Source: an uncultured Halomicronema sp. (GTDB taxonomy: Bacteria > Cyanobacteriota > Cyanobacteriia > Phormidesmidales > Phormidesmidaceae). Taken from it: a stretch of DNA of 51,915 bases. The notes under the pieces are model-generated. The model searched no databases. It was not told the DNA's origin and was given only the letters and a program-made list of their open reading frames with translations. Shown here piece by piece: positions 121 to 5,432 of this stretch. Each line of letters begins with the position of its first letter. Position 1 is the stretch's first letter. The stretch covers positions 1 through 51,915 of the forward strand of contig CALCCA010000028.1 of assembly GCA_937899725.1 (NCBI GenBank). Reading direction: 5' to 3'. The position numbers and the translations under genes were made by a program.

Positions 121-606
121 CTAACCTAAAACCTGCTCCAGGTCGCCCAATTCACTGCCATCCATGTCTACACCCTGTTCAAAGTTAGGGGCAGCCATCG
201 CCTGAGAAACCGGAACCCCGGCTTGAAAGGACTCAGCCACCCTCCGAAATCCCTGTTCAAGTACTCTTTCCAGTTGGCCGAAATCGCTAACCGTTTGGGT
301 GTCAGCTTTGGTCGCGGGATTGGCAATTCGATAACGGTCACAAAGGTCATCAATTTGCTTCGTCAGTCGCTCCACACAGTGACGCGCCATCTCCTGAATC
401 TCTGAGACTGACAACTCACCCTGGAATTCCTCTGCCATCGGTCGGTAAAACGCCATCATGGCATCCATGCCCTGTTGTCGCCCGTTTCGACTGGTGAAGT
501 GGAGATTGTGCAGCAGATAGTCTAAAACCACTGCTGTTGGTGCCGGAAACTGAGCGTTGTAGACGAACTTCACGCGCTCCGATCTCGCTTCACACGTTTG
601 CTTCAT
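121..606 (-). CDS. Small partner protein of ParM-like actin (ParR-like candidate)
   Basis: 161 residues, no family recognised from sequence alone. It starts inside the end of the ParM-like gene (shared ATGA, 4-nt overlap), so the two are translationally coupled. Type II plasmid partition systems have this order: parM, then a small DNA-binding adaptor parR. The N-terminal 65 residues hold a beta-like stretch (RVKFVYNAQF) followed by predicted helices with a basic segment (FTSRNGRQQG). The C-terminal 60 residues are acidic and Gln-rich and end in DLEQVLG. In ParR proteins the N-terminus binds DNA and the C-terminal tail binds the filament, which fits this layout, but I see no unambiguous ribbon-helix-helix motif. 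The ParR role is inferred from position and size. Confidence 0.6.
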   Translation of the reverse strand: MKQTCEARSERVKFVYNAQFPAPTAVVLDYLLHNLHFTSRNGRQQGMDAMMAFYRPMAEEFQGELSVSEIQEMARHCVERLTKQIDDLCDRYRIANPATKADTQTVSDFGQLERVLEQGFRRVAESFQAGVPVSQAMAAPNFEQGVDMDGSELGDLEQVLG

Positions 607-1727
607 GACGCTACCTTCATCCGATTCATCTCGCCGAGCAACGCTTGGAACAGACCAAAGCCATCGGTCATTCGCATGGATAACGAGGGCATCTCGTGAG
701 CTTCAGGCAGCTGGGCTGCAACCAAACGTGTCAGCATCTCTTGGTTCTCCCAGGCGAATGATAGACGAGAGCTAAATCCCCGCTCGTCGAAATATCGCCA
801 TAGAGGCTCTCGCATCAGATAAGCGGCTCCTCCTGCCAGAATCACGTCGCCTTTACCAGCCGCCAAATCAGGAATCAGATGATCGTTGAAGTGAGAGTCC
901 AGCACCGCCAGATACGCCGCTTCGACCTGAGCGATCGCCGCCGAAAAATTGATCGTGGCCCCTTTCGCCACTGAATACTGCTCTGGCTGCCGCGACTCTA
1001 GCGCCTGAAATAAGACCCCATACTCAGTCATGGAAACTCCAGCTGTATTGGCGGCTTTTTCAAACAACTCCCAGAAACCCGGAAACTTGGAGGTCGATTT
1101 CGCCGAGTTCAGCGTCCCCGTTTCAAAAGCCAGCTGAGTTCCATTGCGGTGTCCCAGCATTTCAATCCAGGTCGTGCGCTGAGCGATCGCTAGTCCAGCT
1201 TGCTGCACCTGCTGTTTCCGCAGGACATAGATGCCATAGCCCTCTGGGCGAAAGCTGAGCTTCAGTTCAATCCGATAATCCATCTCATCTTGAAACCGAA
1301 AGCCCTGACAAATTTCTATGAGTCGGGAGGCAATGTGCTGTCGCGTCGCGAGTTCATTGATCGGCAGCAGGATCAACACGATCGCCTCAAAGTGAGCCGG
1401 TAAGTTTTCCGTTTTGGCGATCGCCCCTAGAGCACCCGCAATGCGCTCAGCTGCTTTCAGGCACTTGTCTTCCTTGAAGCTGTTGTAGTCCAGAAACGCC
1501 TGGGCCGCTTTGCCCACAAACGTCAATTCATCACCAAGACGAAACCAGGCATTGTCTTGTGGACGTCCCCCTTGAATGACCTGAGCCACACCGGATGCAG
1601 ATCGTTTCGCTACTTCGGCCTCCATCCAGAGGGCATGGGTTTGTCCCTGTGGCAGCTTGTAGAAGAACTTCCCTCCAGATTTACCGAGGTCACAGGCCAG
1701 TAGCAGCGTCGGAGTGCGAGAAATCAT
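603..1727 (-). CDS. ParM/StbA-like actin-family ATPase
   Basis: 374 residues. The N-terminus has an actin-fold phosphate-1-like motif (LLACDLGKSGGKFFYKL, about residues 9-25), and the C-terminal third has the adenosine-type motif DVILAGGAAYL (near residue 295), as in ParM/StbA and related actin-like proteins. Such proteins polymerise with ATP and push plasmid copies apart. It overlaps the next gene by 4 nt, and its upstream region carries a pair of TCAGCA-type repeats (1755-1775), as expected for a parC-promoter region. It lies in the same element as an integrase, so it probably serves segregation of an integrative plasmid or its excised form. The family call rests on motifs; the phosphate-2 region is less clear by eye. 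Confidence 0.72.
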   Translation of the reverse strand: MISRTPTLLLACDLGKSGGKFFYKLPQGQTHALWMEAEVAKRSASGVAQVIQGGRPQDNAWFRLGDELTFVGKAAQAFLDYNSFKEDKCLKAAERIAGALGAIAKTENLPAHFEAIVLILLPINELATRQHIASRLIEICQGFRFQDEMDYRIELKLSFRPEGYGIYVLRKQQVQQAGLAIAQRTTWIEMLGHRNGTQLAFETGTLNSAKSTSKFPGFWELFEKAANTAGVSMTEYGVLFQALESRQPEQYSVAKGATINFSAAIAQVEAAYLAVLDSHFNDHLIPDLAAGKGDVILAGGAAYLMREPLWRYFDERGFSSRLSFAWENQEMLTRLVAAQLPEAHEMPSLSMRMTDGFGLFQALLGEMNRMKVAS

Positions 1728-1754
1728 ATCGTTATCTCCAAATAACTACTTCAA

Positions 1755-1775
1755 TTATCAGCACGATAACAGCAT
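1755..1775 (+). repeat. Pair of TCAGCA-core repeats upstream of parM-like gene
   Basis: TTATCAGCAC at 1755-1764 and GATAACAGCAT at 1765-1775. The hexamer cores start at 1758 and 1769, 11 nt apart, one helical turn. They lie about 30-50 nt upstream of the ParM-like start. The same motif occurs in pairs at 3355-3376 and 3553-3574. This is a candidate partition iteron or operator. Confidence 0.55.
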
Positions 1776-1897
1776 AAACCGTGCCTTTTCGTGAAACTTA
1801 ATTTATTTTTGCTGAGCATGCTATTGAAAACGTGACTAATTGTATTCGCTGTGGTTTCATGCTGAGTTAATGGAATATGATTGTGTGTATCAGGTTG

Positions 1898-2071
1898 CTA
1901 CGCCCCTATCGGGGACTGCGCGGAGGGGCCACACAACGCCGCCAAAGCCGGAATCGTCTCCTCCAGATTCTGCGGATATGGATCAATCTGGTCAGCATAC
2001 TTGTGGTAAGTCTGCGTGCAGGTGCAAAACTCCTCCAGCGTTAGGTATTTGCCCAGCTTCTGCGATCGCAT
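1898..2071 (-). pseudogene. Short ORF, likely 5' remnant of a larger gene
   Basis: A 57-codon frame with ATG at 2071, an AAGGTG ribosome-site-like stretch about 9 nt upstream and a TAG at 1898. The first 45 codons look like real protein: KLGKYLTLEEFCTC is followed by TQTYHKYADQIDPYPQN. To my recollection similar wording opens a longer cyanobacterial protein family, but I cannot name it with certainty. After ALAALC the composition changes to a GC-rich palindromic stretch (around 1900-1930) and the frame stops. I read it as a gene truncated by rearrangement inside the element; an intact small gene is possible. Confidence 0.42.
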
Positions 2072-2178
2072 AACTCATTCACCTTGAGCTATTCCCTGCT
2101 TTCAACATACAGCCCCCATTAGATAGCAAGCATCTGCTAGTAGGCGATGGCCCAGAAACATCAACACCGAAAGGTTCC

Positions 2179-2850
2179 CTAAGTTTCTAACTCCCTGGCT
2201 CTGGTCCGAACTCGCTCCGATTGTCCCACCTGCAGCGACTGAATTGCCTGCACTTGAGTGACTGTTCCATTGGCATATTGCTCGATGGTTGAAGGCGAAA
2301 CATGTTGAACATCCATTTGAAATCGCGCATAAGGCCCCTGCTGTAGCAATGAACCAACCCCCTGAGGCGTTTCTCCAGCCCCAAGCGCCGCTGCCGTCAC
2401 CTTCTGATCCAACTGAATCGCCGCCAGGTCACTGCCCACATACTCGCGATACAGATCTGGATAACTCTGGATTTTTCCCGTCACCGCACAGGCATATTCC
2501 AGGTATCGCTGCTGCTGCACTTCGTTCACCGTTTGCTGGGCATACTGCAACAGCTTGGATAACGCTGCCTGCTTTTCCTCTGGGGTCAGCGTGGCCGCTT
2601 GATGTTGGGTAAACGGCCCCTGCGCCAACAGCTGAATCACTTGCCGTGTTGAATTTCCCGCTTTCAGGGCAACCCCAGCAACTTCTTGATCCAAAGCCTG
2701 CGCCGCTATCGAGTTTGGCGCATAGCGCTGATACAACTCCCCATAATTTTTCACCGTCTTGCCGGTGGCCTTTGTCAGAGAGAAATACTGTTCTCGAACG
2801 GCTTTACCCTTTGCACTGTCCGGTTCTTTTGGCAGAGGCAATTCCGTCAT
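2179..2850 (-). CDS. Uncharacterised element protein with internal duplication
   Basis: 223 residues, function unknown. It holds two homologous copies of a helical unit of about 75 residues: roughly 20-95 and 114-190. Matching landmarks are YGELYQRY / YPDLYREY, AAQALDQEV / AAIQLDQKV, VALKAG / AAALGAG and LLAQGPF / LLQQGPY. There is no signal peptide or membrane segment; composition is Gln- and Ala-rich. Its start overlaps the stop of the upstream 167-aa gene by 4 nt, so the two form an operon. Genes in this position in integrated elements often serve mobilisation or regulation, but nothing in the sequence shows which. Confidence 0.75.
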   Translation of the reverse strand: MTELPLPKEPDSAKGKAVREQYFSLTKATGKTVKNYGELYQRYAPNSIAAQALDQEVAGVALKAGNSTRQVIQLLAQGPFTQHQAATLTPEEKQAALSKLLQYAQQTVNEVQQQRYLEYACAVTGKIQSYPDLYREYVGSDLAAIQLDQKVTAAALGAGETPQGVGSLLQQGPYARFQMDVQHVSPSTIEQYANGTVTQVQAIQSLQVGQSERVRTRARELET

Positions 2851-3350
2851 AAGACATCCGCAAACTCATCCAGCAAGTCAGCCTCCTGAGTGCTCACCAG
2901 AGCCGTTTGATCAGGTGCAGGCATTGGCGGCAATTGCACCGTACCCTCAGCCTCAACAGTAGACACCGACTCTGACGTCACCAGCGTTTCAGTCGCGAGA
3001 CTACTTCCGCCTACCCCGATGCCAAACTTTTCCCTTAAATGCTGAATTTGGGCCTCCATTTGCCAGATGGACTGCTGAGCTAAGTCCCGCAATTCTGCTT
3101 CCGAATGATTGCCAGATGCCTCATAGGCAAACGGTAGCCAAAAAGCACGAGTCGCCGTCGCGGCTTTCTCCTTTCCTTTATAAGTGCCATGAATCAACCA
3201 GGAGTAGGTGATGCCGTTAGGAGAAGTGCGATCGGGCTCGAAGATGAAACGTACCCGGGACTTTTTACCAGAATCGGCTTCTTCAGGGTTGGATGACGGT
3301 TTTCTTCCACGAGGCATGAGACTAAAACCAAACTGAGGACAGGTTTCCAA
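2847..3350 (-). CDS. Uncharacterised element protein with basic N-terminus
   Basis: Up to 167 residues; an internal Met at residue 12 (MPRGRKPSS, start at 3317) is an equally good start. The N-terminus is basic (RGRKP, GKKSRVRF), the middle has a compact region (GITYSWLIHGTYKGKEKA then AFWLPFAYEASG), followed by a helix rich in Glu and Gln (about 85-110) and a Pro/Glu/Val-rich acidic tail ending LLDEFADVL. The 3' end overlaps the duplicated-domain gene by 4 nt. Two TCAGCA repeats lie immediately upstream (3355-3376). I do not recognise the family. Basic head and acidic tail would suit a DNA-associated protein; this is inference only. Confidence 0.7.
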   Translation of the reverse strand: METCPQFGFSLMPRGRKPSSNPEEADSGKKSRVRFIFEPDRTSPNGITYSWLIHGTYKGKEKAATATRAFWLPFAYEASGNHSEAELRDLAQQSIWQMEAQIQHLREKFGIGVGGSSLATETLVTSESVSTVEAEGTVQLPPMPAPDQTALVSTQEADLLDEFADVL

Positions 3351-3354
3351 GCCG

Positions 3355-3574
3355 CTATCAGCATATGGATCAGCATCAGCGGCGAATAATCGACAATATT
3401 GTAGCGTGAACCCGGTGAATGCTGAATAGCAATGGCCGCAATGCTGATATAAAAGCTTTCAGACGCAGAGAAAGAGACCTGCATTTGTGATTCTTCAACT
3501 GTTTCTAGTCTTAATGAGGACAAAAAACATAGAACATGTATGCTTTTGTAAATTAATCAGCACTTTATCAGCAT
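3355..3574. repeat. Six TCAGCA-core sites in helical phase
   Basis: Direct copies are CTATCAGCAT (3355-3364), GGATCAGCAT (3367-3376), TTAATCAGCAC (3553-3563) and TTATCAGCAT (3565-3574). Inverted copies have the core TGCTGA at 3420-3425 and 3442-3447. Core-to-core distances are 12, 22 and 11 nt within pairs, so each pair sits on one face of the helix. The array fills the divergent region between the 167-aa gene and the excisionase-like gene. It could be an operator for both promoters, a centromere or a replication iteron cluster. Confidence 0.55.
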
Positions 3575-3699
3575 TAATGAAGTGGCGTATTTTAATATCG
3601 AGTTATCGAGGTAAATGATGCTTCTACCAACGTTCTTGCATTGGGTTCTCTAAATGGCCCGAAAGTGTGTGAAAGGTTTGCCGGATATAGGTTTGATGG

Positions 3700-4095
3700 A
3701 TGCCGGAAGACCGTTCGCACGACGGAGAACTCTCTACGCTGATGGATGACTGGAGAGAATCAGGCATGGATACCCCTGAAGTTTTGGAAGCTTTTTTTGG
3801 ACAGCTCAATGCTCGCCTTGATTTAATCGAAGGCAACCTCAGAGAATTGCACTATCGGTTGAATAGTGAGCTAGATGCGCCCAAGCTGGTGAAGCTCAAC
3901 GAAGCTTGGAAAGTCCTGGGCTATAAAAATTACGACGCCTGCCTATATAAGGTTCGGTCTGGCCACTACCGCGTCAACAAGGAAATCGTGGATCGCCGCT
4001 CTCCTCAATCGAGAAGACCTGATTGGTATGCCGATATTGAAAAGTGTCAGCTCCGCGATCGCACCCTGGTTGGCAAACGTTCTGGCCTCAAGTAG
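3700..4095 (+). CDS. Excisionase-like small DNA-binding protein
   Basis: 131 residues; downstream ATGs at 3742 and 3766 are possible starts, the latter preceded by GGAGAG. The C-terminal half (about 60-115) looks like an excisionase/MerR-type winged-helix unit: LVKLNEAWKVLGYKNYDA (recognition helix), then VRSGHYRVNKEIVDRR (wing) and RPDWYADIEKCQLR. The N-terminal half contains a probable coiled coil (FFGQLNARLDLIEGNLRELHYRLN). It is convergent with the integrase gene, the stops being about 10 nt apart. Small proteins of this type direct excision by tyrosine recombinases; the assignment is by fold resemblance and position. Confidence 0.6.
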   Translation: MPEDRSHDGELSTLMDDWRESGMDTPEVLEAFFGQLNARLDLIEGNLRELHYRLNSELDAPKLVKLNEAWKVLGYKNYDACLYKVRSGHYRVNKEIVDRRSPQSRRPDWYADIEKCQLRDRTLVGKRSGLK

Positions 4096-4105
4096 TCAAA
4101 CCGCT

Positions 4106-5219
4106 TCAAACCGATTGCTTCTTCTTCAACGCCGCAAAGTAAGTCTGAGCTGCCCGCTCTTTGGAAATATGCTTCTGATAGGTTCCGAGGTTGACATTCG
4201 GATTGTGCCCCATGAATTGAGAGGCAACCGCTGTGGGTAATTCGAGCCACAAAGCCGCTCTGAGACTCCAGGCATGGCGCAGGCTGTAAGGCGGAAAGGG
4301 CATCTTGGCTCGTTGAAAGGCTGTCGAAGTCCGGTCTCCATAGTCTTTATTCATCCGAACCGTTACCGATGGTCGTCGCACGTTCCACAGTTTCCACCGA
4401 TCAACCCACTCAGGCGGCAGAGGAAAGGTTTCTCGCTTACCGGTTTTCGTGCCGTCAGGAACCAGGGCCACCAGCCACCGCTGACCGTCATAGTCACGCC
4501 AGTCAACCTCACAGAGAAACGCTTCATGGTCTCTGAGGTTGTAAGTCGCCATCATGGCGGCCACCCACTGCCAAGACTTATTCTTCATCCCGTCGATGGC
4601 AGCGATAATGTCGTTGTCTTCAGGAATGACCCGCTCGACATTACTCAACCTGTACTCTCCCTGCCGATCTTTAAATATTTGACGAGACGGCTGCGAAATC
4701 GGCCAGTCGCTGAAACTTCTGGCAGGCAATCTGACGACTGCGACTATTCGGTTTCCAGCGATCTGCCACCTCATCCAGGAGTTGCGCAGTCAATTTCGCG
4801 TTCGGTGGTAGCCACTTAAACGCCGGGTACCAGAACTGTTCCCGCCAACGGAGAGAGATGGCCTCTTCCTCACCCTCCTGCTGTTTCAGCCAGTCCTGCT
4901 TAAAGCGTTCTATCCAAGACTCACAGGTGTCAGACTTCTCTTTAGGGTCGGCTTCAAGGTCTCGCCAGTCGAAGCGCTTTTGGGCCAATAAGGCTCCCAG
5001 ACGATAGGCTTCAGCTTCGGCAAACTCAATACCGGCAGGGTTGGCATAAACCCCTAAGCGAATAAGCTGCTGGCTGGGTCGATCCTTTTTACTGCCGGGT
5101 CTGGGGGGAAGGGTCCCTCTCAGGGAGAGCTTTTCTCCCCGTTGAAAGAGCCGCAAACCCATTTGAGCGGCTTCTAGCCGCTGATTGGCAGCTTTTACCG
5201 TCAACGCCTTCCGCCCCAT
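4106..5219 (-). pseudogene. Tyrosine recombinase/integrase split by a +1 frameshift
   Basis: Two frames make one integrase of about 370 residues. The first (start 5219, stop 4671) holds the N-terminal arm and SAM-like core-binding domain up to FQRLADFAAVSSNI. The second frame carries the catalytic domain down to 4106: first Arg in YNLRDHEAF, second Arg and His in SLRHAWSLRAA, the late His in FMGHNPNV and the likely nucleophile Tyr in GTYQKHI. Removing one T at 4673 joins them cleanly (NI-KDRQGEY). The shift occurs at the codons ATT TAA A. Either the gene is inactivated, the base is a sequencing error, or ribosomes shift +1 at the stop. The gene begins 140 nt from the 3' end of tRNA-Val, the usual place for an integrase after tRNA-targeted integration. 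Confidence 0.82.
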
Positions 5220-5359
5220 TTTGAACTAACTCCCGATCCAGACTGATCTAAAAGTGATCTAAAAATCACTCCGTTTATTCTAGTTCAGTGCCATTCAGTC
5301 AGTTCCGGCTAGACTAGAGCTACCGGACTCAAAAGGGCTCAGGGCTTGTGTTTCTTGAA

Positions 5360-5432
<73 letters not shown>

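Follow-up and report, generated by a model that had tools for sequence, protein, structure and literature searches.

The closest precedents for the locus analysed here, judged by analogy, appear to be the StbA protein and stbDRs repeats of plasmid R388 and the srpMRC genes of the SXT/R391 elements. According to the available sections of the work on R388, StbA recognises 9-bp repeats that are separated by 2 nt and lie beside oriT. It represses its own promoter 50-fold and acts as a repressor at other promoters as well, and further copies of the motif are found at other promoters (PMC3098194, PMC3937220). The account of SXT/R391, likewise available in part, has SrpR binding the region upstream of srpM, where four 13-bp repeats lie (PMC4489591), and for ParR of plasmid R1 the consulted passages give two repeats as the minimum for binding (PMC9426499, PMC4949242).

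Here we describe a set of TCAGCA sites in an integrated element of an uncultured Halomicronema sp. that resembles each of these systems in part. As in R388 stbABC/stbDRs, 11-nt-period repeats lie around a promoter next to an oriT-like segment, and copies of the motif stand in groups of two or three at further promoters of the element; the R388 binding protein serves stability, transfer and repression, and we propose a similar role here (PMC3098194, PMC3937220, as far as the available sections go). Unlike R388 as presented there, the partner is ParM-like and not the Walker ATPase StbB, the repeats are fewer, the element is integrated, and there are two paralogous candidate binders. As in srpMRC, the ParM/ParR-like genes belong to an integrative element and lie beside int and near oriT; the locus differs in its motif (13 bp there), in its hosts, and in having a second ParR paralog and shared excisionase-promoter sites, neither of which appears in the available part of the srpMRC account (PMC4489591). 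The gene order is that of R1 parMRC, a ParM gene with a ParR gene (here a ParR-like one) downstream and 11-bp repeats flanking the promoter, but parC of R1 has ten repeats against about 2+2 here, and the sites here recur elsewhere in the element. The cyanobacterial FcmB/FcmC are also an actin-like pair, derived from plasmid partition genes; FcmB is described in the sections at hand as chromosomal and as shaping cells (PMC12645912), whereas the gene studied here lies in a mobile element and its product gives no match to the FcmB model. A second ParM of the same genome, on contig C148, matches that model far below the cut-off (57.8 of 300 bits). No description of such a regulon was found in the accessible portions of the literature searched, the motif itself having been outside those searches. 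We think it probable that the TCAGCA sites are element-encoded operators for two paralogous proteins, p161 and p167, tying parM, the 167-aa gene and excision-linked genes under common control.

The window, by which we mean the whole stretch of 51,915 nucleotides analysed, forms the beginning of contig C28 and has cyanobacterial relatives; the genome is assembled as 216 contigs with a total of 7.0 Mb. Genomes, contigs and loci are cited below by our own handles (G, C and L). Its first 5.4 kb is one end of an integrated element (Table 1). Because the end of the tRNA gene recurs as an exact 47-bp copy on contig C106, the element probably runs from that copy through an unsequenced gap, between C106:42596 and window position 1, to window position 5405; a search for an empty attachment site within the genus yielded no joined flank. 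An integrase-like gene, here in two frames, and attachment repeats at a tRNA gene are found, as in an ICE; as to the relaxase and transfer genes that an ICE has of its own, no relaxase was found in the part of the element that lies in the window. The integrase homolog in G406 (L128:7349-8470) is a single open frame of 374 aa, and the split in the window reflects either decay or an assembly error. A phage origin was rejected, as no relative of parM was found among phage records or viral contigs. The 131-aa gene beside the integrase had been called excisionase-like in the sequence-only reading, a name that no family match of the 131-aa protein backs. Two observations concern the gene row. The halves of the 223-aa protein both match the same stretch of one relative, in G406 and in L070, and the protein seems to be internally duplicated. 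In L132 (2782-5200; G406), from a group of loci with about 42% identical parM, the parM, p161/p167-like, 223-aa-like and excisionase-like genes stand in a row, which suggests that the two operons of the window came from the splitting or duplication of one.

Table 1. Features of the element end in the window (positions are those of the window)
Feature	Position	Strand	Remarks
161-aa ParR-like gene	121..606	-	4-nt overlap with the end of parM
ParM-like gene	603..1727	-	374 aa; homologs annotated ParM/StbA
parM-proximal pair TCAGCA-N5-ACAGCA, 11 nt	1758..1774	+	on the parM strand TGCTGT-N5-TGCTGATAA
Middle parM-promoter site	1810..1815	-	exact also in L063 and L069; not in most others
Distal parM-promoter site	1860..1865	-	exact in 14/14 aligned upstream regions, window included
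Conserved stretch without coding function, probably the right half of oriT	1881..1930	-	
TGTGT junction where a truncated gene meets the oriT-like segment	1931..1935	-	about 47 codons kept, start at 2071
223-aa gene	2179..2850	-	overlaps the end of the 167-aa gene; apparent internal repeat
167-aa gene	2847..3350	-	156 aa if the conserved ATG at 3317 is used; paralog of the 161-aa protein
Pair TCAGCA-N6-TCAGCA, 12 nt	3358..3375	+	adjoins the 167-aa gene
Two TCAGCA sites, 22 nt apart	3420..3447	-	distal part of the 167-aa gene promoter
Pair TCAGCA-N5-TCAGCA, 11 nt	3557..3573	+	127 nt before the 131-aa gene
131-aa gene	3700..4095	+	adjoins the integrase; divergent from the 167-aa gene
Integrase gene	4106..5219	-	two overlapping frames in the window; phrog_216 integrase match only E 0.23; box motifs by eye
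Attachment repeat, 3' part of tRNA-Val(TAC)	5359..5405	.	identical 47-bp copy at G000:C106:42160-42206
tRNA-Val(TAC)	5360-5432		

Homologs of the ParM-like protein occur in 77 plasmid records, in 68 of them over at least 80% of the query, and 16 of 20 among the matches listed are annotated ParM/StbA; it is through these annotated homologs that the actin-like ParM of a type II partition system (ParMRC) is recognised. The protein has no relevant Pfam, NCBIfam or PDB match of its own, and another homolog from this genome, 28% identical to it, matches the partition protein family phrog_691 (E 5e-12). In a type II system ParR is a ribbon-helix-helix DNA-binding protein whose gene comes directly after parM. 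The gene for p161 overlaps the end of parM, and its product is homologous to p167, the product of the 167-aa gene, over 89 columns (hhalign probability 97, E 1.1e-10). Both proteins combine a conserved N-terminal half with a variable linker and a conserved acidic tail, the layout expected of ParR adaptors. Searches of Pfam, PHROG and PDB gave no match that identifies p161 as a ParR, p167 has no accepted family match, and the PDB sequence searches returned nothing useful; structure-based identification of both proteins was dropped because the AlphaFold models were too poor (mean pLDDT 49 for p161 and 51 for p167). A replication role for the 167-aa gene was rejected, since p167 is a paralog of the ParR-like p161, and with no replication gene recognised among the element proteins tested the earlier idea that the motif also governs replication lacks support. 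The idea that a single protein unites the sites is uncertain, given the two paralogs.

Exact TCAGCA or TGCTGA occurs at 1758, 1810, 1860, 3358, 3370, 3420, 3442, 3557 and 3568. The sequence-only reading had listed eight sites in pairs spaced by 11, 12, 22 and 11 nt; the spacings are correct and seven of the eight sites are exact, that at 1769 reading ACAGCA instead. It also gave an additional TGCTGA at 1810, which is present and exact, and its list lacked the conserved site at 1860. Its three promoters are in fact two intergenic regions, as the groups at 3358-3447 and 3557-3573 lie in one gap between divergent genes. In the parM-proximal pair the nearest copy is 36 nt before the ATG, and a scan of 1700-3750 found no sigma-70-type promoter. 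Since TCAGCA is common in the window generally (72 copies of TCAGCA/TGCTGA against 38.4 expected, a number that 0 of 100 shuffles reached), counts alone mislead. Six copies nevertheless lie in the 349 nt that separate the 167-aa gene from the 131-aa gene (3351-3699), where 0.31 would be expected (0 of 5,000 shuffles), and three in the stretch before parM (1728-1880), against 0.14 (2 of 5,000 shuffles). Within the window, 349-nt stretches with at least four copies occur only around these two regions and the adjoining end of the 167-aa gene. Equal density elsewhere, which would have told against the motif, is not seen, either in the window or between genes in two related 100-kb stretches. In the 7.0-Mb genome as a whole, TCAGCA-N4-6-TCAGCA has 20 matches against five for a control with the pattern reversed, two of them 199 nt apart within the 3351-3699 gap and the other 18 elsewhere.

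Relatives whose parM is 75-87% identical come from Nodosilinea, Kaiparowitsia, Leptolyngbya and two further filamentous cyanobacteria, and their parM promoters follow a common plan, with a distal TCAGCA and a proximal TGCTGA that has a second copy 11 nt before it. The set compared comprised 14 loci, window included, L032, L033, L036, L037 and L039 being left out for identical upstream DNA or match figures and L070 because it has no parM start. TCAGCA is the top over-represented hexamer before parM (34 copies against 2.96 expected, in 14/14 loci), a figure that overstates independence because the loci are related. At the parM-proximal place 12/14 loci have a pair that is spaced by exactly 11 nt and has no more than one mismatch, the exceptions being L063, which has its pair at the distal place instead, and L038, with two mismatches. 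Repeats upstream of parM, as in a parC, are conserved (sites in 14/14 loci, an 11-nt pair in 13/14), at only about 2+2 sites. We also inspected 18 more distant parM loci. The 28%-identity group (seven loci, one of them C148 of the same genome) has clusters of 11-nt AAGTCGTGAAT-type repeats upstream, L006 and L009 have TTGGCGT-type repeats and L008 is without them, and in the 42% group (eight loci) the repeats are short (TAACC, TCCCAT) or unclear. In the C148 element the repeat cluster is at parM only.

Before the 167-aa gene TCAGCA again ranks first, with 25 copies against 3.65 expected in 10/10 non-redundant loci, the window left out. Of 20 matching loci 16 were used, L059 being the window's own; L061 and L001, which are further copies of the window, and L076 and L079, which have too little upstream DNA, were set aside, and for the ten-locus test the near-duplicates L077, L100, L081, L083 and L086 were dropped together with the window. 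One exact TCAGCA only is found in 5/16 loci, and 3/16 (L073, L082, L083) lack the 11-nt pair. For four of the loci the genome has no intact closely related parM: G390 has none, G410 has a 29-residue fragment, and G394 and G403 have only about 43% identical ones. The 167-aa promoters of these four hold nine sites against 1.40 expected (0 of 3,000 shuffles), with the 11-nt pair in 3/4; L086 (G398), a near-duplicate of L085, and L079 (G412), which lacks upstream DNA, were left out of this test. Sites that are kept without a close parM point to self-regulation by p167, with p167 itself a likely binder, although the absence of a close parM from G390 and G394 is weak evidence because these genomes are about 90% complete.

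Several relatives have, after the 161-aa gene, a gene of 84 aa whose product matches the excisionase family phrog_539 (E 7e-6) and also phrog_66, "excisionase and transcriptional regulator" (E 7e-4). An integrase adjoins this gene in L126, L063, L172 and L171, with PF00589 above the cut-off for L126 and L172, and in L065 it is followed by genes other than an integrase. Nine of 14 loci entered the counts, L132, L048, L046, L088 and L070 having been inspected outside them. TCAGCA is found upstream of the 84-aa gene in 9/9 close loci, and between -330 and -140 it ranks first (20 copies against 1.58 expected, 9/9 close loci), this stretch having been picked after the sequences were viewed; over the full 330 nt it ranks second. 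Two of the nine loci (L065, L069) are without the 11-nt pair. In G426 the excisionase-like gene lies about 26 kb from parM, yet the pair is kept, and the longer pattern GCTGAN5TGCTGATWA occurs there twice only, before parM and before the excisionase-like gene. In the 42% parM group, the excisionase-like gene is preceded in L132 and L048 by one TAACC but by no TCAGCA pair, and in L046 and L088 by neither. That the front of this gene appears to differ with the parM group, which amounts to an operator-swap test, is suggestive only. Among the parM groups compared, a regulon that reaches excision and a second ParR-like gene would seem to be a feature of the TCAGCA group.

No other single result is as strong as the 11-nt phasing. 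When no more than one mismatch in total is allowed, pairs spaced by exactly 11 nt occur at 13/14 parM, 13/16 167-aa and 7/9 84-aa excisionase-like promoters, against shuffled means of 0.03, 0.07 and 0.05 loci, respectively, and against 0-4, 0-1 and 0 loci for spacings of 9, 10 and 12-16 nt, although these locus counts are not independent because the loci are related. One turn of the helix is kept while the rest of the promoter varies, and the place and orientation of the pair differ among the three promoter sets. The suggestion of a shared, helically phased, parC-like control motif is borne out by the dominance of the 11-nt spacing in all three sets, and the conservation in related elements on which it depended is seen at the parM, 167-aa and excisionase-like promoters alike. 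At a place like window 3557..3573, L075, L099 and L077 also have an 11-nt pair, with one mismatch. Scanning 100-kb stretches of G426 and G406 for pairs spaced 10-12 nt with at most one mismatch returned 17 pairs, 13 of them inside genes; all three that are labelled intergenic are at parM or 167/131-aa promoters (G426 parM, G426 167-aa, and the gap between the 131-aa and 167-aa genes of G406), and a fourth promoter pair, before parM in G406, is labelled as inside a 77-aa reading frame. The pattern GCTGAN5TGCTGATWA gives 39 matches in 25 of 63 genomes against four for the reversed control; 13 of the 39 are placed by position at these promoters, which leaves 26 unplaced, many of them in element-free genomes.

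In the relatives a gene for a TrwC-type relaxase is divergent from parM (PF08751, E 2.5e-83 in L062), and the gap between the two includes a conserved segment in which GCCAAAACCTTGGC is followed by GTACTGTGT and this by GG. A hairpin followed by nic is the layout known for this relaxase class, and the segment of the relatives resembles it. The truncated gene of the window is related to a 199-aa gene in L079. The sequence of the relative at the place of the junction, TTGGCGGCGTTGTGT, resembles TTGGCGTACTGTGT of oriT, and the junction itself (1931-1935) lies inside similar TTGGCG...TGTGT sequences. The window copy appears to be without the transfer region, with its break at a nic-like sequence. 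Premature termination of transfer at the nic-like site would fit the order and strand, as would a plain short-repeat deletion. According to the consulted part of the work on TrwC, this relaxase is able to integrate the DNA it transfers at nic sites (PMC3264647). The relaxase of the relatives has one match in the window's own genome, 49% identical and on C148. That contig carries a second ParM-relaxase region (L133 5923-7053 and 8010-10688, G000:C148), with clusters of 11-nt AAGTCGTGAAT repeats and an oriT-like core, GTGTGTGG, and it is this region that includes the genome's one relaxase match.

On the reading we favour, p161, as the partner of ParM, and p167 would bind the TCAGCA sites, typically as pairs 11 nt apart and hence on one face of the helix. 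The sites, their 11-nt phasing and conservation and the paralogy of the two proteins are observed, whereas the binders, the repression and the centromere role are inferred. Binding at the pair that ends 31 nt before the parM start would repress the parM-p161 operon, and the same sites would let the 167-aa gene regulate itself, its operon being repressed in turn. The excision-linked neighbour, which is the 131-aa gene in the window and in relatives an excisionase-like gene of 84 aa, would come under the same control. Next to the oriT-like segment, the array on the parM side may also serve as a small parC by which ParM would move the excised circle, although the case for a centromere is weaker than that for an operator because parM has only about 2+2 sites against the ten of R1 parC.

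That shortage of sites also bears on the converse arrangement, in which a parC centromere would be the main function and promoter control a by-product, ParM filaments capturing p161 at the parM-side sites and the others being secondary copies. The position of the sites upstream of parM, their 11-nt pairs and the true 11-nt arrays of the 28%-identity parM group would all suit a centromere, but in related elements the same pairs are also found at promoters that are tens of kilobases away from parM, which regulation fits better, and we consider it unlikely that the centromere is the main function. Transfer offers another role, since the distal parM site adjoins the oriT-like segment, which in relatives is next to a TrwC relaxase gene, and 7 of 10 members of the p167 family have weak Pfam MobI matches (best E 2.5e-4, the scores shown being below the curated cut-off). 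The sites would then be accessory to oriT, and p167 and p161 would be MobI-like transfer factors that aid relaxase loading, their binding near oriT serving transfer. With no MobI match for p161 and many of the sites at promoters far from oriT, this seems improbable.

It is slightly more improbable still that TCAGCA is bound by a regulator of the host, or by the 131-aa protein or the excisionase-like one, and not by the ParR-like proteins. An excisionase-like protein (phrog_539, phrog_66) is indeed encoded beside the sites in relatives, and genomes have such pairs at other places too (18 of the 20 in the window's own genome). Against this reading, the 167-aa promoters keep their sites even where a genome has no intact close parM, and the excisionase-like genes of the 42% group (L132, L048, L046, L088) have no TCAGCA pair in front.

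Operators for p161 and p167 thus remain our preferred account of the sites. A bolder extension of it, which we offer tentatively and rather doubt, is that a ParR-type regulon couples partition to the excision decision and that the window copy is a mini-element produced by premature relaxase termination at a nic-like site. The ParR paralogs, sitting on phased TCAGCA pairs, would keep the excisionase-like gene off, and loss or titration of the paralogs, for example on a newly arrived copy, would turn partition and excision on together; the mini-element would keep the regulon and the integrase and drop the transfer genes.

The best reading of the locus is that the TCAGCA sites link partition with excision in this integrative element, the relatives of which carry a TrwC-type relaxase. 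If this is true, how excision is linked to the segregation of integrative elements would become directly testable through a shared set of phased sites, and the operators, the compact integrase module and the oriT would provide tools for filamentous cyanobacteria.
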